From an uncultured Roseovarius sp. (GTDB lineage Bacteria; Pseudomonadota; Alphaproteobacteria; Rhodobacterales; Rhodobacteraceae), in assembly GCA_947503145.1 (NCBI GenBank), contig CANNCP010000007.1, positions 124,001 through 188,000 on the forward strand: 64,000 nucleotides of DNA. The letters are read 5' to 3'. The stretch's first letter is position 1; every line of letters starts with the position of its first letter. Shown here in pieces: positions 20,970-56,814 of the stretch. Both the position numbers and the translations under genes were made by a program. Under the pieces are notes generated by a model that did no database searches, had not been told where the DNA came from, and saw only the letters and a program-made list of their open reading frames with translations.

Positions 20970-21020
20970 TCAAAGCGTGTCGCCCTGCATCTGATTTCGC
21001 AAACAAGGCGAAACGCTTTG
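20970..21020. repeat. Single-hairpin copy of the dispersed palindromic repeat (copy 3)
   Basis: TCAAAGCGTGTCGCCCTGCA is followed by TCTGATTTCGC and CAAGGCGAAACGCTTT. The arms AAAGCG-TGTCGCC and GGCGAAACGCTTT pair. It lies immediately downstream of the peroxiredoxin stop codon. Confidence 0.7.
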
Positions 21021-29029: not shown

Positions 29030-29137
29030 ATGAATGAGCAGCTGGATATCACAGAGTGGGCAATCGGATACCCCTGTCAGGGGTGCGGGATTGCTCGGGG
29101 CTGGCTGTTCGGCTCTGTCATGACGGTTCCCGCATGA
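29030..29137 (+). CDS. Putative 35-residue microprotein, translationally coupled to flavoprotein gene
   Basis: An ATG at 29030 preceded by AGGGGA at 7 bases opens a 35-codon frame whose TGA overlaps the ATG of the next gene (ATGA at 29134-29137). The product contains YPCQGCGIARGW, a CxxC pair, which could bind metal or be redox active. The downstream flavoprotein has no good ribosome site of its own, so this frame may also serve as a leader for translational coupling. There is no recognised family; it could be a leader peptide rather than a functional protein. Confidence 0.5.
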   Translation: MNEQLDITEWAIGYPCQGCGIARGWLFGSVMTVPA

Positions 29138-30315
29138 CCGATGCGTTGGTCATAGGGGCCGGGCCCGCCGGTCTGATGGCCGCAGAAGCGATGGCAAGCG
29201 CGGGTTTGCGCGTCACCGTCGCCGAGGCCAGACCGTCGCCCGCGCGCAAGTTCCTGATGGCAGGCAAGTCGGGTCTGAACCTGACCAAGGCCGAGCCTGT
29301 CGAAGCCTTCCTGACTGCCTTGGGCACCGATGCCGCGCCTTTGGAGCCGATGCTGCGCGCCTTTGGCCCGGCAGAGGTTCAGGCCTGGGCCGAGGGGCTC
29401 GGACAGCCGCTCTTTACCGGATCGACGGGGCGGATCTTTCCCAAGGTGATGAAGGCATCCCCGCTCCTGCGTGCGTGGCTGACGCGGCTCGATGGGCTGG
29501 GCGTCACGCTGCGCCGGGGCTGGCGCTGGGAGGGGTGGGACGGCGCGGACGTGCTGATGCAGACACCCGATGGACCCATGCGCCTGACACCATCCGTGAC
29601 CGTGCTGGCCTGTGGCGGAGCAAGCTGGGCACGGCTCGGCTCTGACGGTGCGTGGGCCGCGTATCTGCCGGATCAGACTGCCCCGTTCCAACCCGCGAAC
29701 ATCGGATTCCGCGTCAACTGGTCAGATCATATGCACCCCCATCTGGGCCATGCGATCAAGGGCGTGGCGCTGCATGCCGGGGGCGCGGTGTCGCGCGGCG
29801 AATTTGTCCTGACCAGACATGGGATCGAAGGCGGTGGCATTTACGAAGTATCGCGACAGATGCGCGAAGGTGCGGCGTTGACCATTGATCTGATGCCGGA
29901 TGTTTCCGTGGACAGCATCCGCGAGCGGCTGGCCCGCCCGCGTGGCAAGGCGAGCCTTGGCAACCACCTGCGCAAGGCGTTGAAATTGCCGCCCGTGAAA
30001 CAGACATTGCTGATGGAATTCGCACGCCCCCTGCCCGACGATATCGCCCCGCTGGTCAAGGCGCTGCCGATCAACCATGCGGGCCCGATGCCGCTGGATC
30101 AGGCGATATCGACTACGGGCGGGCTACGCTGGGACGCGGTGGACCAGACGTTGATGTTGCACGCCAGGCCCGGCACCTTCGCAGCCGGAGAGATGCTGGA
30201 CTGGGAGGCCCCGACCGGGGGCTACCTGATCACCGCCTGCCTTGCCACCGGCCTATGGGCGGGGCAGCATGCCGCCCAATGGGCGACCGATCAGGAGGAG
30301 ACTACAGCGCGCTGA
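29134..30315 (+). CDS. TIGR03862-type flavoprotein (HI0933-like FAD/NAD(P)-dependent oxidoreductase)
   Basis: The 393-residue protein starts DALVIGAGPAGLMAAEAMAS, the FAD-binding dinucleotide fold. It contains ARKFLMAGKSGLNLTKAEP, the HI0933 family hallmark, and CGGASWARLGSDG. The C-terminus has STTGGLRWDAVD and GEMLDWEAPTGGYLI. The function of this family is not established. It starts by overlap with the microprotein stop, and its 3' end runs 25 bases past the end of the - strand GST pseudogene. Confidence 0.9.
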   Translation: MTDALVIGAGPAGLMAAEAMASAGLRVTVAEARPSPARKFLMAGKSGLNLTKAEPVEAFLTALGTDAAPLEPMLRAFGPAEVQAWAEGLGQPLFTGSTGRIFPKVMKASPLLRAWLTRLDGLGVTLRRGWRWEGWDGADVLMQTPDGPMRLTPSVTVLACGGASWARLGSDGAWAAYLPDQTAPFQPANIGFRVNWSDHMHPHLGHAIKGVALHAGGAVSRGEFVLTRHGIEGGGIYEVSRQMREGAALTIDLMPDVSVDSIRERLARPRGKASLGNHLRKALKLPPVKQTLLMEFARPLPDDIAPLVKALPINHAGPMPLDQAISTTGGLRWDAVDQTLMLHARPGTFAAGEMLDWEAPTGGYLITACLATGLWAGQHAAQWATDQEETTAR

Positions 30316-30713
30316 AATACCCCGCGCACCTCCATCCAGGCTTTGAACCCGGCCAGCTTCTCGTCCGGTTTAAAGTGTTCCGCGAAAAACCTGGCTCACA
30401 GCTTTTCGCAGAACGCAGCGATACATATGAGCGTTGCACGCATTCCGCCTTAACTGAGTGCCTCAGGTTTAAGGCGGAACGCTCTAGGGAGCTTCGCGAC
30501 CTCGGACCAGCGCAGGCAATGGGCCAGCAGCATATCGGAAATGGTCATCTCTGCCCCCATCAGGAACGGCCCTTGAGGCGCATCCGACAGGCGGGCGATG
30601 TTGCGGCTGTATTCCCATTTCATCGACACCTTGATGGCAGGGCTGCGGCGTTCTTCGGGCATCCTCAAAACGCTCAGGGCGCGGCTGGCGCGGGTTCCGA
30701 TCACTTCGTACAT
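30291..30713 (-). pseudogene. Glutathione S-transferase pseudogene with internal deletion, split by a repeat element
   Basis: Read on the - strand, the ATG at 30713 gives MYEVIGTRASRALSVL, the GST thioredoxin-fold start. It then jumps to MPEERRSPAIKVSMKWEYSR, NIARLSDAPQGPFLMGAEMT and ISDMLLAHCLRWSEVAKLP of the helical C-terminal domain, so about 90 central codons are missing. At 30486-30371 a 116-bp repeat interrupts the frame. Beyond it, KPDEKLAGFKAWMEVRGVFQ and RAV complete the GST C-terminus, ending at the TGA at 30291. Joining the two sides across the repeat restores a normal GST ending. Calls are by motif recall, but the two flanks fit together well. Confidence 0.75.
30371..30486. repeat. 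Full-length two-hairpin palindromic repeat (copy 4), inserted in GST pseudogene
   Basis: The element runs from TAAAGTGTTCCGC to GCGGAACGCTCTA, with imperfect terminal inverted repeats of about 13 bases and TA at each end. Inside, GTTCCGCGAAAA pairs with TTTTCGCAGAAC (hairpin 1) and ATTCCGCCTTAA pairs with TTAAGGCGGAA (hairpin 2). It aligns over its whole length with the copy at 46322-46437. Confidence 0.85.
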
Positions 30714-30805: not shown

Positions 30806-31834
30806 TCAGCGTGCCGCGCCCATCATCGCAAGCCGGATCAATGCGCGCTCTACCAGCGCCATCTGCGGCGCGGTTTGCCCCGCAGAGCGCAGGTGCAGGT
30901 CGGTATCCGTCAACAACACCAGCGCCGATTCCAGCCGTGACGCCCCCCATTGCTGGGCCTGTCGGATCATCCGGTCGCGGCGCGGGCCAAAGACCGGCGG
31001 GCGCATTCGCGCGATGCCCTGCGACGGCCCGCCAGGATCGGAAGCAGCCGTGTAGAGTGTGCGAAAATGGCGCGTCGCAGTGATGCACAGGCTGACCGGC
31101 TGCACCCCCTGCGCACGCAGGCGTTTCATGATCGGGCCGATCTCGCCCGAGCGCGCTTCGGCCACGATATTGAGCACATCGTCAAGATCGGCCTCGGTCG
31201 ATGCAGGTCCGCAGACCGCCACATCCTCGGGGCTGACGGCTGCACCGTCGCCTATCTTGTAAAGTGACAATTTTTCAAGCGTCTGCCGAAAATCTCCGGG
31301 ATCAAGCGCCCGCGAGAGGGTGACCAGATCGACCATCGCTTCGGGTGTGACATCCCTCAGCCCCGCCTTGCCCAGCATCGCTTCGATCTCGCTGCGCGAG
31401 GGCGGATCGTCGTAGATCGCGGCGGCATAGGCATTACCATGCCCCTCGAACGCCTTGCGCAGCTTCGATGTCGGCTTGAGCGCGCCGGCCGTCACGACGA
31501 TCTGCGCATCGCCCGCCTGCCAGTCGGCCAGCGCGGCGAGGATCGGCGTGGCCAGCGCCTCGGTCGCGTCCTCGACAAAGGCGACGCGCGGACCGGGAAA
31601 GAACCCCTGCGCCTTGATCGCATCCAACAGACGGGCCGGGTCCTTGCGCAGATCGGCGGCGAGCATGCGCGCAAGGCGCATTTCCGTCTCGCCCTGAGGG
31701 CCGATAAGGGCCGCGATCACCTCTTGCCGCCGTAATGCCACGCGCATCGCGTCATTGCCGTAGATCAGCAGGCCGGTGCGCGCAGGCTCTGGCCGCGCGA
31801 AATAGCCCGACGCATCCCGCGGGCCCAGCTTCAT
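30806..31834 (-). CDS. holA: DNA polymerase III subunit delta
   Basis: HolA is the clamp-loader subunit that opens the beta sliding clamp. The 342-residue protein shows GLLIYGNDAMRVALRRQEVI near the start, RVAFVEDATEAL, the middle Rossmann-like domain with TSKLRKAFEGHG and LSLYKIGDGAAVS, and the C-terminal collar LALLTD-type region. I chose the ATG at 31834. It starts 13 bases after the lptE stop codon, so it is the last gene of leuS-lptE-holA, the usual order in alphaproteobacteria. Confidence 0.93.
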   Translation of the reverse strand: MKLGPRDASGYFARPEPARTGLLIYGNDAMRVALRRQEVIAALIGPQGETEMRLARMLAADLRKDPARLLDAIKAQGFFPGPRVAFVEDATEALATPILAALADWQAGDAQIVVTAGALKPTSKLRKAFEGHGNAYAAAIYDDPPSRSEIEAMLGKAGLRDVTPEAMVDLVTLSRALDPGDFRQTLEKLSLYKIGDGAAVSPEDVAVCGPASTEADLDDVLNIVAEARSGEIGPIMKRLRAQGVQPVSLCITATRHFRTLYTAASDPGGPSQGIARMRPPVFGPRRDRMIRQAQQWGASRLESALVLLTDTDLHLRSAGQTAPQMALVERALIRLAMMGAAR

Positions 31835-31847
31835 GTGGCCAGCCTCT

Positions 31848-32345
31848 TCATGTCGCGGGCAGCGGTGCGGCGACAACAAGCCGGGTGATCAACATGTCTG
31901 CCAGGATCGACATCAGCCGGGCGCGCGCGTCGCGCTCTGCCGCCTGCGTCGCAACGGTGGAGCCGGACGCCGAGTAGCCGGTAAAGTTGTTCACCTTGCC
32001 AGAGGCCACCACGGCGCCGGTCGCCAGATGACGCAGGGCATAAGTAATCTCGCCCAGCAGGTTAAAGCGCTGCGTCACGTCGTTGAGGTCAATGGCAATC
32101 GCTTCACTCTGGACCGTGATCGCGTAGGACAGCCCGTAGGTGGCCGGGCTGCCGCGCCCCAGCCGCTGTTCGATCTCGCGCACCAGCAGAAACGCATCGC
32201 GCGTCGTGGGCGCATCGGCCAGCACGGCATCTTGCAGCGCGGCACCGCCACCGTCCGGCCCATAGACCGGCGTGAAACCGCAGGCGCCAAGCGCGGTAAG
32301 GCTGCCGAGGCAGAAGAAGCGGCGGGTATGGCGTGTATTGATCAT
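31848..32345 (-). CDS. lptE: LPS-assembly lipoprotein LptE
   Basis: LptE plugs the LptD barrel in the outer membrane and helps insert lipopolysaccharide. The 165-residue protein has an N-terminal lipoprotein signal (RRFFCLGSLTALGAC) with the lipidated Cys22, then GFTPVYGPDG, the typical LptE start. The following ALRHLATGAVVASGKV and later AERDARARLMSILADML are family features. It lies between leuS and holA, which is the expected neighbourhood. Confidence 0.92.
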   Translation of the reverse strand: MINTRHTRRFFCLGSLTALGACGFTPVYGPDGGGAALQDAVLADAPTTRDAFLLVREIEQRLGRGSPATYGLSYAITVQSEAIAIDLNDVTQRFNLLGEITYALRHLATGAVVASGKVNNFTGYSASGSTVATQAAERDARARLMSILADMLITRLVVAAPLPAT

Positions 32346-32407: not shown

Positions 32408-32490
32408 GCAGAAAAGAACGCCCACAACCTAACCCGTGTGGTGAGCGTTTCGGGTTCAAGTCGTGTCTCATCTGAACTCGAAACGCTTTA
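32408..32490. repeat. Variant two-part palindromic repeat (copy 5) abutting the leuS stop codon
   Basis: GAGCGTTTCGGGTTCAAGTC is followed by GTGTCTCATC and TGAACTCGAAACGCTTTA, a hairpin with arms GCGTTTCGGGTTCA and TGAACTCGAAACGC. The end CTTTA coincides with the leuS TAA (read TAAAGCG on the - strand). The left part (AACGCCCACAACCTAACCCG) aligns with the copy at 45354-45457. Confidence 0.8.
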
Positions 32491-35037
32491 GATCACCACA
32501 TTCACGATCCGTCCGGGGACAACGATCACCTTCTTCGGTTGCCCGCCCTCCAGCGCCTTTTGCACAGCATCAAGCGCCAGCGCAATTTTTTCAACCTCTT
32601 CCTTGGTCGCGTCTTGCGCCACCTCGATTTCGCCGCGCCGTTTGCCGTTAATCTGGACCGGCAGCGTGATGGTGTCGTCGATCAACATCGCGGCATCGGC
32701 TACCGGCCAGGGCGCGGTCACGATCAGGCCGGTGCCGCCCAGCATCTGCCACAGTTCTTCGGACAAATGCGGCGTCATCGGTGACATGAGCTGCGCCAGC
32801 ACCGTGGCTGCCTGACGTTTGGCAGCCGCGCCTGCGGTGGATTTCGACAGGGTATTGGTAAAGGCATAGAGCCGCGCGACGGCGGCGTTGAAGCCAAAGC
32901 TCTCGACCCCGCCGGTCACATCATGGATCGCTCTGTGCATCTCGCGCAAGAGCGCCTCATCCGCCTCTGGCGAGGCATCTTTGGCTATGTCGTCGACGAT
33001 CTCGGACACGATCCGGTAAACCCGCGCGAGGTGTTTGTACGCGGCCTCGGCACCTGCTGCGGTCCATTCCACGTCGCGCTCGGGCGGGCTGTCGGACAGC
33101 ACGAACCAGCGCGCGGTATCGGCTCCGTAGGCCGAGATGATCCGCTCCGGGTCCACCACGTTCTTCTTGGATTTGGACATCTTGGCAGATGGCACGATGC
33201 TGACCTCGGTGCCATCGTTCAGCCTGCCATCAGTCACCTCTTCGGGGAGGTGATAGACCGGGCGACCCTTCGCGTCGCGGGTCTGGTAAATCTCGTGCGT
33301 GACCATCCCTTGGGTAAAAAGCGCGTTGAATGGTTCGATCGCGGATTTCGGCAGATGCCCGGTGATGTGCATCGCACGCGCAAAGAAGCGTGAATAGAGC
33401 AGGTGCAGAATCGCGTGCTCGATCCCGCCGATATACTGATCGACATTCATCCAGTAGGCGGCGTCTTCGGCATCTGTCGGCGTCGGCGCATGCGGAGACG
33501 TGAAGCGCGCATAATACCACGAGCTGTCCACGAACGTATCCATCGTGTCGGACTCGCGCAGCGCGGCACCGCCACAGGACGGGCACGACGTCTGCCGCCA
33601 GGTCGGATGGCGATCCAGCGGATTGCCCGGCACATCAAAGCTGACATCATCGGGCAGCCGCACAGGCAGGTTTTCCTTGGCCTCTGGCACCACGCCGCAG
33701 GTCGCGCAATGCACCACCGGAATCGGACAACCCCAATAGCGCTGACGCGAAAGCCCCCAGTCGCGCAGGCGGTACTTGGTCACCCCCTGGCCCACGCCCT
33801 GGCTTTCGCAGAACGCAATGGCAGCGTCGACAGCATCGTTTCCGGTCTGATGCGCTGCACCGGCAAAGCCACGATTATAATAGACTTCTTCGGTCTTGGA
33901 CGGCACGAACGCCTCGGTCAGTTCGTCGACGCTGTCTTGGGACGGCAGATAGGTCGAGATGATCGGCAGGCCGTATTTCGTCGCAAAGTCGAAATCACGT
34001 TGATCATGTGCCGGGCAGCCAAAGATCGCGCCGGTGCCGTAATCCATCAAGATGAAATTGGCCACGTAAACCGGCAATTCCCACGATGTATCAAAAGGAT
34101 GGCGCACGCGCAGTCCGGTGTCATAGCCGAGTTTCTCGGCTGTCTCCAGCGCTTCGGCGGTGGTTCCGCCCTTGCGGCATTCGGCGTTGAACTCCGCCAG
34201 CGCATCGTCGTCCTTTTCCAGCTGTCGGGCCAGCGGGTGATCAGGCGAAACCCCGATAAAGCTGGCCCCCATGAGCGTATCGGGCCGCGTGGTATAGACC
34301 TCTACCCGGTCGTGGCCTTCGAGACCGTCCACCATTGAAAACGAAAATTGCAGCCCGCGCGATTTGCCGATCCAGTTCTCCTGCATCAGCCGCACCTTGG
34401 CGGGCCAGTTGTCGAGCGTATCAAGCGCCTCCAGCAACTCTTCGGCCATGTCGGATATCTTGAAGAACCACTGCGTCAGCTCGCGCCGCTCGACCTCGGC
34501 ACCAGAGCGCCAACCCTTGCCGTCGATCACCTGCTCGTTGGCCAGCACGGTCATGTCGACCGGGTCCCAGTTCACGACCGCGTTCTTGCGGTAGACAAGC
34601 CCGGCTTCGAGCATGTCGAGGAAAAGCGCCTGTTGCTGGCTGTAGTATTCCGGGTCGCATGTCGCGAATTCCCGGCTCCAGTCAATGCTGAGGCCCAGCG
34701 GCTTCATCTGGCCGCGCATGTCGGCGATGTTCTGATAGGTCCAATCCTTGGGGTGGCCACCGCTGGCCATCGCCGCGTTTTCGGCGGGCATCCCGAAAGC
34801 GTCCCAGCCCATCGGATGCAGCACGTTATGGCCGGTCGCCAGCTTGTGCCGCGCGATCACGTCACCCATCGTGTAGTTGCGCACATGCCCCATGTGGATA
34901 CGGCCCGACGGATAGGGGAACATTTCAAGCACGTAATATTTCGGCTTGTCGTCCGAGCGTACGGCCCGAAAGACCGAAGCCTGTTCCCAGGCGTCCTGCC
35001 ATCTGGCTTCGATTTCGGCGGCTGAATAGCGCGACAT
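32488..35037 (-). CDS. leuS: Leucyl-tRNA synthetase
   Basis: LeuS charges tRNA-Leu. The 849-residue protein has the HIGH-type motif in [19 protein letters not shown] near residue 45, the CP1 editing domain (about 230-430), the zinc-type CxxC pairs ([21 protein letters not shown]) and [14 protein letters not shown] with KMSKS. The ATG at 35037 has AGGGG upstream and is preferred to in-frame codons further up. The stop codon is the first base triplet of a repeat copy. Confidence 0.98.
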
Positions 35038-35223
35038 GGGCGGCGCCCCTTTTGGTCTGAATGCGTCGATAGCGGTGATATGCCGGGCGACGCGCAGGGT
35101 CCAGAGGCAGGTGAAATTTTGCGCAAATGGCAACTGCGCCCATTACGCTATGAGCCGCTGCACTATGCAGCCCGACCTGCCCTGCCTATAACAGAAAAAA
35201 CGGGCATCAAGCAGTGCAGGCAC

Positions 35224-36474: not shown

Positions 36475-36800
36475 TCGCCGGCGCGCCCGCAACAGACAGT
36501 GCCAAGGCTGCAGCACGGCAAGAGATTCGCGCAGCCGGCCCCGAATCACAACCGGCCGAGCCAAAATCCGGAGCACGACGCATGAACCAGTCCAATTCCC
36601 TCTTCATTCAGAGCCACGGCTGCGGCCACGGACACTGCATGAACAGGTGCTGGATCGCCTGCCGGTGTCGCCGACGAAGAGAGAATAGAGCGCGGGTAGT
36701 CAAAGCGTTTCGCGAAGAACCTGGCTCACGGCTTCTTGCGAAACACGCACGACATACAAGCGTTGCGCGCGTTTCACTTTTATCTGATGTCTCAGATTAA
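36471..36800 (+). CDS. Uncertain small protein (109 aa) whose C-terminus lies in a repeat
   Basis: An ATG at 36471 overlaps the stop of the GT4 gene (ATGA), so translation could be coupled. The frame runs 109 codons to 36800. The N-terminal part is Ala-rich; the middle has GCGHGHCMNRCWIACRCRRRR, rich in Cys, His and Arg. About the last third, from 36701, is encoded by the repeat at 36701-36815, so the original end has been replaced. I know no homologue. It could be a decayed gene or a chance frame. Confidence 0.35.
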   Translation: MIAGAPATDSAKAAARQEIRAAGPESQPAEPKSGARRMNQSNSLFIQSHGCGHGHCMNRCWIACRCRRRRENRARVVKAFREEPGSRLLAKHARHTSVARVSLLSDVSD

Positions 36801-36815
36801 AGGCGAAACGCCTTA
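36701..36815. repeat. Full-length two-hairpin palindromic repeat (copy 6) abutting a stop codon
   Basis: It runs from CAAAGCGTTTCGCG to AAGGCGAAACGCCTTA, with hairpin 1 TTTCGCGAAGAA...TTCTTGCGAAA and hairpin 2 GTTTCACTTTTATCTGA/TCAGATTAAAGGCGAAAC. The TTA at 36813-36815 is the TAA stop of the DUF3576 gene on the - strand. Confidence 0.85.
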
Positions 36816-44480: not shown

Positions 44481-45356
44481 ATGATTAAAGGTTCTTTGCC
44501 TGCCCTGGTTACGCCGTTCAAGAACGACGCAGTGGATTTCGATACGCTCAAAAAACTGGTGGAACGGCAGATCAGCGCAGGCAGTCACGGCCTCGTCCCC
44601 GTCGGCACCACGGGCGAGAGCCCGACATTGAGCCACGAAGAACATGAGGCAGTGGTCGAGACAGTGGTGCGCACCGCAAATGGCCGCGTGCCTGTCATCG
44701 CGGGCGCGGGCAGCAACAACACGATCGAGTCGATGCGCCTCATGCAATATGCCCACAAGGTCGGTGCCGATGTCGCGCTGGTGGTCACACCCTACTATAA
44801 CAAGCCGACGCAACGCGGGCTGATCGCACATTTCCGTGCGCTGCATGATTGCTGCGATCTGCCGATCATCATCTACAACATCCCCGGTCGCTCGGTCGTG
44901 GACATGCTGCCTGCCACCATGGGCGAACTGGCAAGACTGCCGCGCATCATCGGCGTCAAGGACGCAACCGGCGATCTGGCGCGGGTCAGCCAGCAGCGGA
45001 TCACCTGCGGCACCGATTTCATCCAGATCTCGGGCGAGGACGCCACTGCACACGGGTTCAACGCGCAGGGCGGTATTGGCTGCATCTCTGTCACGGCCAA
45101 TGTCGCGCCCAAGCTCTGTGCAGAATTGCAGCAAACCATGCTGGCCGGCGACTATCGCAAGGCGCTGGAGCTTCAGGACCGGTTGATGCCACTGCATCAG
45201 GCTATCTTTACCGAGCCGGGCGTCGTCGGCGTGAAATACGCGATGTCGCGCCTGGATCTGTGCAGCGAAGAGGTCCGCTCGCCGCTGACCGAGCTGTCAG
45301 ACGAGACCAAGCTGCTGGTCGAAAGCGGCCTTCGCCATGCCGGGCTACTGAACTAA
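44481..45356 (+). CDS. dapA: 4-hydroxy-tetrahydrodipicolinate synthase
   Basis: DapA condenses pyruvate with aspartate semialdehyde in lysine and diaminopimelate synthesis. The 291-residue protein has [34 protein letters not shown] with Tyr132 and the Schiff-base lysine Lys160 in [10 protein letters not shown]. It starts with a good ribosome site (AAAGGAG). Its TAA stop is the first triplet of a repeat copy. It is the only gene of its pathway in the window. Confidence 0.97.
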
Positions 45357-45457
45357 AAAGCGTCTCGCCTTTCCTCTGAGACTTCAGTTAAAGGCGAAAC
45401 GCCTACAATCTGACCGCATGGCGGGCGTTTCGGGTTCAGCTCGTGTCTCGACTCGCC
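45354..45457. repeat. Variant two-part palindromic repeat (copy 7), from dapA stop codon into the next gene
   Basis: TAAAAAGCGTCTCGCCTTT begins at the dapA stop codon and pairs with AAAGGCGAAACGCCT (hairpin 1). Then CATGGCGGGCGTTTCGGGTT and CAGCTCGTGTCTC match the copy at 32408-32490. The last part overlaps the 3' end of the - strand EamA gene. Confidence 0.8.
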
Positions 45458-46321: not shown

Positions 46322-46437
46322 TAAATCGTTCCGCGAAAAACCTGACTCACAGCTTTTCGCGGAACGCAGCGATACATATGATCGTTGCATGCATTCCACC
46401 TTGACCGAGTGCCTCAGATTTAAGGCGGAACGCTTTA
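46322..46437. repeat. Full-length two-hairpin palindromic repeat (copy 8)
   Basis: From TAAATCGTTCCGCG to GCGGAACGCTTTA, 116 bp, the same length as the copy at 30371-30486. Hairpin 1 is GTTCCGCGAAAA/TTTTCGCGGAAC (perfect 12-base arms). Hairpin 2 is ATTCCACCTTGA/TTTAAGGCGGAA. It lies between the EamA gene and the phaB terminator. Confidence 0.87.
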
Positions 46438-47399: not shown

Positions 47400-47430
47400 A
47401 TTGATCTGTGCGCCGCATACGCCGGGTTAT

Positions 47431-47487
47431 GGCGTTTCGCCTTTAACCTGAGACACCAGATAAAGGTGAAACTCGCGAAACGTTTAG
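47431..47487. repeat. Half-length copy of the palindromic repeat (copy 9) abutting the phaA stop codon
   Basis: GGCGTTTCGCCTTTAACCTG followed by AGACACCAGATAAAGGTGAAAC matches the 3' hairpin of the copy at 36701-36815 in reverse complement. The final TTTA includes the TTA of the phaA stop codon on the - strand. Confidence 0.8.
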
Positions 47488-48659
47488 TCCCGCTCGACGC
47501 ACATGGCGACACCCATGCCGCCACCGATGCAGAGCGTGGCAAGGCCCTTCTTGGCACCCCGGCGCTTCATCTCGAAGAGCAGCGTGTTCAGAATCCGGCA
47601 GCCCGATGCGCCGATGGGGTGACCGATGGCAATCGCGCCGCCATTGACGTTCACGATGGCCGGATCCCAGCCCATGTCCTTGTTGACCGCGCAGGCCTGT
47701 GCGGCAAACGCTTCGTTGGCTTCCACCAGATCCAGATCGTCCACGGACCAGCCTGCCTTTTCCAGCGCCTTGCGGCTGGCGTGGATCGGACCCGCGCCCA
47801 TGATCGACGGGTCAAGGCCGACAGTCGCGTAGCTGGCGATACGCGCCAGTGGCTCGATTCCACGTTTCATCGCTTCATCCGCGCTCATCAGCAAGGTCGC
47901 GGCAGCACCGTCATTGAGACCCGAAGCGTTGGCGGCGGTCACGCTGCCGTCCTTGGTAAAGGCCGGGCGCATCTTCTGCATCGCCTCGATGGTCGCGCCG
48001 TGGCGGATATACTCGTCCTTGTCGACGATGATTTCGCCCTTGCGTGTCTTGACGGTGAACGCGATCACTTCATCGTCGAACTTGCCCGCCTTTTGTGCCG
48101 CTTCGGCCTTGTTCTGGCTCGCGAGGGCAAATTCATCCTGCATCTCGCGGTTGATCTGCCATTGCTCGGCGACGTTTTCTGCGGTCTGGCCCATGTGGTA
48201 GCCATTGAATACATCCCACAGACCGTCCCGGATCATCGTGTCGATATATTTCATATCGCCCATCTTGTGCCCTGCGCGCAGATTCGCGGCATGGGGGCTG
48301 AGCGTCATGTTCTCCTGCCCGCCCGCGCAGATGATCGACGCATCGCCCAACAGGATATTCTGCGCGCCCAGCGCGACCGCGCGCAAGCCGGAACCGCAAA
48401 CCTGATTGAGGCCCCACGCCGAGCTTTCGATCGGCAGGCCCGCATTCACATGCGCCTGACGCGCAGGGTTCTGGCCCTGTGCTGCGGTCAGAACCTGACC
48501 GAGGATCGTCTCGGACACTTCGGATTTGTCGATCCCGGCGCGCTCCACGACGGCCTCCAGAACAGCGGCCCCCAGATCATGCGCGGGTGTATTGGCGAAC
48601 GCGCCCCCGAACGAGCCGACAGCCGTGCGGGCTGCGGATGCAATAACGACGTTGGTCAT
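47484..48659 (-). CDS. phaA: Acetyl-CoA C-acetyltransferase (beta-ketothiolase)
   Basis: PhaA condenses two acetyl-CoA to acetoacetyl-CoA. The 391-residue protein has the acyl-enzyme cysteine Cys88 in [11 protein letters not shown], the [10 protein letters not shown] histidine motif and the second catalytic cysteine in [29 protein letters not shown] is the usual thiolase start. The ATG at 48659 begins that motif. It is upstream of phaB on the same strand. There is no phaC in the window. Confidence 0.96.
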
Positions 48660-52123: not shown

Positions 52124-52178
52124 TAGAGCGTTTTGCCCTTAACCCGAGACATCAGATAAGGTGAAACGCGCGCAACGG
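52124..52178. repeat. Half-length copy of the palindromic repeat (copy 10)
   Basis: TAGAGCGTTTTGCCCTTAAC followed by CCGAGACATCAGATAAGGTG and AAACGCGCGCAACG matches the reverse complement of the 3' part of the copy at 36701-36815. It lies between the convergent carboxypeptidase and ccoS genes. Confidence 0.75.
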
Positions 52179-52180
52179 CC

Positions 52181-52339
52181 TCAGGGCTTGGGGCGGTCAT
52201 CCCAATCATCAGACAGGATGCGGCGGCTGTCACCTTGGGGGTCGTCGTATTGATTGCTGCGCACCGTGTAGATGAACGCGATCAGGCCGATACCCCCCAG
52301 AAACAGTGAAATCGGGATGAGGTAGACGAGAATGTTCAT
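52181..52339 (-). CDS. ccoS: cbb3-type cytochrome oxidase assembly protein CcoS
   Basis: The 52-residue protein reads MNILVYLIPISLFLGGIGL, then IAFIYTVRSNQYDDPQGDSR and RILSDDWDD, the CcoS pattern: one N-terminal membrane helix followed by a short soluble tail with QYDDPxGxSxRIL. It is needed for copper and heme insertion into the cbb3 oxidase. The ATG at 52339 overlaps the ccoI stop (ATGA), as is usual for the last gene of ccoGHIS. Confidence 0.93.
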   Translation of the reverse strand: MNILVYLIPISLFLGGIGLIAFIYTVRSNQYDDPQGDSRRILSDDWDDRPKP

Positions 52340-56618: not shown

Positions 56619-56666
56619 ATCCCGAGTCTGGAAGTAATGATTTATGCAGCCGGTTCCGTAACGTCC

Positions 56667-56745
56667 AGAGCGTTTCGGGAAATACCTGAGACGGGAACAT
56701 CACGTAACGCAGAGCAACATGACAATATTGCACGCGTTTCGCGAC
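56667..56745. repeat. Degenerate copy of the palindromic repeat (copy 11)
   Basis: AGAGCGTTTCGGGAAATACC is followed by TGAGACGGGAACATCACGTA, ACGCAGAGCAACATGACAAT and ATTGCACGCGTTTC. It aligns with the copy at 30371-30486 through the hairpin-1 and spacer parts (ACGCAG...ACATATGAGCGTTGCACGC), but the hairpin is decayed. Confidence 0.55.
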
Positions 56746-56814
56746 GGCCGGAGGCGGCTTGTCCAGGCGGCCACCGGATACGACATCCGCCCGGCGTAAC
56801 CTGTCAGCAGATAC

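Follow-up and report, generated by a model that had tools for sequence, protein, structure and literature searches.

The 116-bp repeat at positions 30371 to 30486 of the window, the 64,000-nt stretch of Roseovarius DNA analysed here, is very probably a non-autonomous MITE of the IS630/Tc1-mariner type that was mobilised in trans by IS630 into a GST gene. The element lies on the + strand with its left end at 30371 and consists of 112 bp plus a TA at both ends. It is short, non-coding, and multi-copy, and has terminal inverted repeats, its inverted ends reading TAAAGCGTTCCGC and GCGGAACGCTTTA.

The interrupted gene is a GST-family pseudogene on the − strand (30291–30713; start codon 30713, stop 30291–30293) that is broken by the element and also lacks about 90 internal codons. 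Its 5′ part (30487–30713, − strand) encodes MYEVIGTRASRALSVLRMPEE fused to RRSPAIK...SEVAKLP and corresponds to profile positions 1 to 21 and 111 to 169. Its 3′ part (30291–30370, − strand), in the same frame, encodes KPDEKLAGFKAWMEVRGVFQRAVVSS up to the stop. Peptides AHCLRWSEVAKLP and KPDEKLAGFKAWMEVRGVFQ thus flank 30371–30486 on the − strand, one on each side. The first-pass annotation had placed a repeat copy inside a GST pseudogene and proposed that removing the element gives the usual GST C-terminal order, and both readings are borne out by a profile built from 23 uninterrupted relatives of the genus. When 114 bp (112 plus one TA) are removed, the joined protein reads EVAKLP-KPDEKLAGFKAW and matches the profile without a gap over positions 111 to 192 at 125.4 bits, versus 102.4 bits for the head alone. 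Removal of 112, 115, or 116 bp gives 101.6 to 103.2 bits, which is about the score of the head because the tail is then out of frame. The tail alone scores 10.1 bits, versus 6.8 bits for the best of 5000 shuffles.

Since the net insert is 114 bp, the two GST flanks share one frame. The fact that only the 114-bp removal restores this frame points to a net insertion of 112 + 2 bp, as a TA duplication predicts. A TA is present at both positions where a duplication had been proposed (30371–30372 and 30485–30486), and the frame is restored only if one of them is kept. The insertion point is the TA in the CCT-AAA codons of the GST gene. Alignment to the GSTs of relatives, put forward earlier as a check, finds the flanking segments contiguous in the 23 relatives of the genus whose frames are uninterrupted, and a non-contiguous ancestral arrangement was not seen among them. 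These observations support a 2-bp TA duplication at the GST site, where the empty site is reconstructed from different species, belonging to the same genus and family.

The assignment as a GST comes from relatives, through the domains of L036, a member of the profile in which Pfam GST_N and GST_C are both above cut-off. The pieces encoded in the window have no Pfam match, and the NCBIfam matches of the relatives to GstA/maiA are below cut-off. Orthologues in relatives are 195 to 196 aa long, and the window gene fits their profile at positions 1 to 21 and 111 to 192. This gap reflects a second lesion, in which about 90 codons separating positions 21 and 111 of the family (195 aa) were lost and the remaining parts were fused at the codons MPEE (30651–30662, − strand, counted from the start codon), with approximately profile positions 22 to 110 gone. 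Both source segments at this junction encode a similar short stretch, which makes a deletion between short repeats plausible. As this deletion is a separate event, the GST gene may already have been non-functional when the element inserted.

Gene order around the site is conserved. A flavoprotein of the HI0933-like type (29128–30315, + strand; Pfam PF03486, E 7.8e-58) converges with the GST gene and is kept in 22 of the 25 relative loci. On the other side lies an ORF (30806–31879, − strand) that is found by tblastn at 69 to 79% identity in 16 of the 25 loci within the flank that was fetched. We take its product to be holA-like, although the protein has no Pfam match. Among 80 named Rhodobacteraceae loci, the flavoprotein flank contains a GST match in 36, and blastn at E 1e-3 found the element in none of the 80. 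Judged from this shared neighbourhood, the GST gene is an old syntenic gene.

When the GST ORF is read through, its final 11 residues are coded by the element, and two in-frame stops fall within the element. Rickettsia palindromic elements (RPEs) are likewise palindromic repeats inside genes, but in the description of PMC2229807 they are translated parts of protein genes, whereas the present element introduces stops and disrupts its host gene. An identity as an RPE was rejected on the two in-frame stops.

At least 40 copies of the element are present in the genome (3.55 Mb in 44 contigs), with 84 to 100% identity to the window copy over the aligned parts. This count is a lower bound, as 40 of 108 candidates were scored; of 41 rows, the last was excluded as the reverse of a copy already counted. 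A TA is found at both ends of 23 of the 40 copies, at the left end of 31, and at the right end of 29. The window holds a second full copy at 46322–46437 (+ strand, 91% identity) and a third, more divergent full copy at 36701–36815 (+ strand, E 5.8e-24). Further relatives of the element, degraded or divergent, lie in the window at 47428–47569, 52124–52231, 56666–56780, 45356–45406, and 20971–21020.

Each copy consists of two hairpins and a linker. In the GST copy, the left arm hairpin spans 30375 to 30416 and the right arm hairpin spans 30440 to 30482, both on the + strand. With the structure drawn by hand from the sequences, 91.7% of the cells in 37 aligned copies are paired, whereas controls with slid partners reach at most 48.4%; at 10 of 26 pairs, both sides have changed. 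When folded as DNA, the GST copy lies 5.5 standard deviations below shuffles. RNAalifold omitted most of the right arm. At Rfam gathering thresholds, no match falls on the element, and a tRNA at 375–458 is the only match in the window. L248:400-514, a divergent 115-bp element with two arms but other loops, perhaps represents another subfamily.

Shorter forms exist as well. From 31 further loci with an isolated end, we picked 15 single-hairpin units of 49 to 52 bp with TA-like ends, which could have arisen from the long form by deletion between its repeated GCGGAACGC motifs. A 50-bp single-hairpin remnant lies in the window at 32441–32490, at the 3′ end of an ORF (32488–35133, − strand) that we presume to be leuS-like and whose TAA stop is formed at the edge of the remnant. 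Six copies (L010, L012, L014, L017, L064, and L066) sit exactly at the TA of a stop codon and leave the frames intact; according to Pfam, the frames that end there encode cytochrome bd subunit II, glutaminase, two ABC permeases, an ArsR-type HTH protein, and a GGDEF protein. At 58 boundaries, the frame that uses the stop codon has at least 200 open codons in eight cases, versus zero and one in the other frames. A preference for stop-codon TAs was considered and rejected, in that nine of 23 copies with TA at both ends versus 220 of 710 control TA sites is no clear enrichment.

The element is patchily spread. Matches occur in 32 of the 84 genomes of the genus and in 16 of 295 sampled family genomes, seven of them near full-length (the own genome included) and nine only partial. 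A class-wide covariance search found it in the own genome alone among 289, although this is a weak test in which 12 candidates per genome were scored. In another genus, three copies 89 to 91% identical to the consensus lie within 7.3 kb of a single contig (G613:C82:12291-19607; L277, L291, and L299), possibly as a result of recent horizontal transfer. In genome G088, seven of the listed copies (e.g., L087) share one and the same score against the query, suggesting a recent burst; searches of this genome for DDE_3 and Y1 transposases gave no match.

This architecture recalls the CIR (CcrM-associated intergenic) repeats of Caulobacter and Brucella, which PMC2229807 describes as about 110 bp long with TA termini, two arms with a linker, and GANTC at the loop of one arm. 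The present element shares with them its size, its TA termini, its arms and linker, its multi-copy and mostly intergenic occurrence, and its alphaproteobacterial host. It resembles CIR and can be called CIR-like, a likeness to CIR1 to CIR4 drawn by description and not by sequence. The part of that source dealing with CIR records the target duplication as unknown and intragenic copies as not found, states that the mechanism of mobility needs more information, and gives the role of the GANTC as undetermined. The element differs from the CIR description in that one copy is intragenic with a frame-supported TA duplication and the ends are IS630-like. Furthermore, the CIR entry in the table of PMC2229807 gives no terminal inverted repeat, whereas the ends of this element are inverted.

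Likeness to CIR in architecture and GANTC content (as described in PMC2229807) also brings in the original view of those repeats, according to which the element would be a host regulatory or structural intergenic sequence that is spread by recombination and whose GANTC serves host gene regulation. That no other convincing intragenic copy emerged from the own and relatives' copies screened fits such a role. This explanation nevertheless appears improbable, given the TA-flanked insertion into a once contiguous gene, the resemblance of the arms to IS630 ends with handedness mostly kept (see below), and the patchy spread across genus and family. The intragenic screen joined the flanks of each copy and relied on open-frame length and inspection by eye, with Pfam run on five frames and the remainder judged by eye only. 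Neither the 39 other own copies nor 41 copies in relatives provided a second convincing case. Among the five frames (L071, L082, L088, and L091, flagged by script, and L022, picked by eye), three had no Pfam match, L082 and L088 had a Pfam domain to one side of the junction, and no domain spans the junction in any of the five. Hence the proposal made in the first-pass annotation, that this sequence can enter a gene, stands for a single copy, the one in GST, and for a gene that also carries a separate deletion.

Two other families provide parallels. RUP of Streptococcus pneumoniae, which is 107 bp long and targets TA, has been proposed to be mobilised in trans by IS630 (IS630-Spn1) through shared ends (PMC2229807). 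In contrast to RUP, the present element has arms and a linker, a form that this source calls unique to CIR; its account of RUP mentions no GANTC, and the hosts are unrelated. The Correia/NEMIS elements of Neisseria (about 107 and 155 bp) similarly have terminal inverted repeats, TA termini, a target duplication, and many copies, but they fold end-to-end as a stem, the long form contains an IHF site, and a CcrM site is not mentioned in their description (PMC2229807).

A link to IS630 is indicated by the element ends. IS630 matches (E 1e-3 or better) occur in 44 of the 84 genus genomes, with NCBIfam transpos_IS630 at E 2.4e-39. The two 27-nt arm sequences were slid along 30 IS-bearing loci, which together have 4148 TA sites, giving a mean of 8.3 matches out of 27; 13 sites reach at least 19 of 27 with the left arm and 18 sites do so with the right arm. 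These sites are the expected IS630 ends except for two in a MITE copy (L238) and two that are unassignable (L235 and L241). Overall, the MITE arms share 15 to 23 of 27 positions with IS630 ends, and the right arm hairpin of the GST copy resembles IS630 right ends.

Handedness was examined on five left and 10 right ends picked by hand. With genus-type arm sequences, which were typed by hand, all five left ends favour the left arm, and eight of 10 right ends favour the right arm with one tie and one against. With arms from the own genome, four of five left ends and eight of 10 right ends agree, with one tie in each set. An end at L220, outside this table, is a tie between the arms. Given this likeness between its arms and IS630 ends found in the genus, the element is best read as an IS630-mobilised MITE.

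The own genome contains one DDE_3 match, an IS630 whose right end differs (TAGAGTGCGTTGCG); its left end was not found, nor was any intact matching IS630 in this genome. A DDE_3 match is also absent from four of 14 element-bearing genomes (G030, G088, G104, and the 76%-complete G002). The case for the mobilising enzyme thus comes from the ends rather than from its presence. By eye, the genomes that bear IS630 are not those richest in element copies.

A different transposase would be involved if the repeat were a REPIN, a pair of inverted REP hairpins that a RAYT (Y1 HUH) enzyme moves. The two inverted hairpins and the solo hairpins do resemble REPIN/REP architecture, and partial matches to Y1_Tnp that clear the Pfam cut-off occur twice in the own genome (46 and 42 of 121 positions), but Y1_Tnp is found in just two of 12 element-bearing genomes, of which the own genome is one. 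REP and REPIN hairpins carry a GTRG-type tetranucleotide at the foot, whereas the hairpin foot of this element has none, and its TA ends with a probable 2-bp duplication likewise argue against a REPIN. We consider this reading very unlikely.

On the IS630 reading, an IS630 transposase acting in trans would recognise the left and right ends of the MITE and excise it. The element would then insert into a GST gene already in place, at the TA of its CCT-AAA codons, and thereby duplicate the TA. The mobilising IS630 would be a copy that is now lost or unassembled.

The left arm loop of the MITE carries a CcrM-type GANTC at 23 to 27 nt from the TA in 29 of the 40 own copies. The GST copy has GGCTC in its place, such that the site is lost. 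Among rows from relatives, 14 of 29 have the GANTC, a count in which three misaligned rows were kept. The A of the MITE GANTC is less conserved than the G, T, and C, and thus no selection for GANTC is seen within the MITE copies (40 own copies and 29 relatives' rows). The left-arm GANTC may have been inherited from an IS630 left end; in the IS630 elements themselves, the pattern is a different one.

IS630 ends were called from TIR similarity alone, and 62 of 110 loci passed: nine of 30 from Roseovarius, 18 of 21 from plasmids, 20 of 29 from a class-wide set, and 15 of 30 from a last search. L386, which belongs to another class and is among the 110, was rejected as too short. The 62 accepted loci yield 57 distinct left ends, including ends from Rhodobacterales, Hyphomicrobiales, Sphingomonadales, and Rhodospirillales plasmids. 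In this alphaproteobacterial IS630 group, a GANTC lies at exactly 23 to 27 bp from the TA in 53 of the 57 left ends and in none of the 57 right ends. Its N is A in 45 cases, T in four, and G in four. The left-end GANTC is carried, for example, by the IS630-like ISRm2011-2 of Sinorhizobium meliloti (L316). By comparison, the background is 16 GANTC in 27,904 positions of the transposase frames of 47 accepted elements. The last search set replicated the pattern, with the GANTC in all 11 new ends. The exceptions are L216, where the motif is one base nearer the end, L227 (GAATT), L307 (AAATC), and L343, whose called end appears to lie within coding sequence. A second GANTC is present at 33 to 37 in 32 of the 57 left ends, often within GGGATTCCC; it is placed roughly one helical turn further inward and forms an inverted GAATC...GATTC pair with the first. 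Among the titles and abstracts listed by targeted searches of open-licence papers, none reports GANTC in IS630 ends.

According to PMC3973325, most Alphaproteobacteria have retained CcrM, and their genomes contain fewer of its sites than expected. One explanation for the IS630 site involves this enzyme: hemimethylated GANTC after fork passage may license expression of the IS630 transposase or recognition of its end, and CIR-type repeats would be non-autonomous derivatives whose GANTC is a transposon-end site and not a host regulatory one. We advance this model tentatively, judging it somewhat more likely to be wrong than right. A precedent is provided by Tn10 and Tn5, which have Dam sites both at the promoter of the transposase and within one of the inverted repeats; these are reported to couple transposition to replication (PMC5390034). 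Like these transposons, the IS630 group has a host methylation site at the transposase-proximal end. The systems described in that source differ in using Dam and GATC with transposases of other families, whereas for IS630 it is the placement of the GANTC that has been shown.

The same motif, usually GAATC, could simply belong to the site that the transposase binds and be unrelated to methylation; we give this explanation an even chance. The motif falls within the terminal region that the transposase should bind, and the preponderance of GAATC (45 of 53 sites) indicates that the N is not free. With its near-fixed A at N, the motif is compatible with a plain binding-site explanation. Against this, G, A, T, and C are 95 to 98% conserved versus 82% for the N, which includes A, T, and G; the GANTC is confined to one end; and it is otherwise rare in these elements. 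Moreover, plasmid controls from outside the Alphaproteobacteria lack a left GANTC in all four accepted cases (of five), although the Azotobacter element has GATTC at 23 to 27 of its right end.

More distant IS630 loci (n = 20, 28–36% identity; 12 from class members with small genomes and eight from other classes) were scored with a slightly wider search window. Among these, 18 of 20 were scorable, and a left GANTC at 23 to 27 was found in none of the 12 that passed. These GANTC-less IS630s also belong to another subgroup, a point in favour of the binding-site explanation, and an effect of CcrM is therefore confounded with ancestry. Control of IS630 and the MITE by methylation is inferred from the pattern of sites, with the GANTC possibly coupling transposition or transposase expression to CcrM methylation.

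The GST insertion itself, as an IS630-type event, is ordinary for a MITE. For the CIR-like family, it provides a copy within a gene whose reading frame supports a TA duplication, and the IS630 elements with similar, handed ends offer a candidate mobiliser and perhaps the source of the GANTC. The wider value of these findings lies in the tie between CIR-like repeats and IS630 and in the near-invariant CcrM site at one end of that IS630 group. This near-invariant left-end GANTC makes methylation-coupled transposition testable in Alphaproteobacteria, analogous to the Dam-linked control of Tn10 and Tn5.
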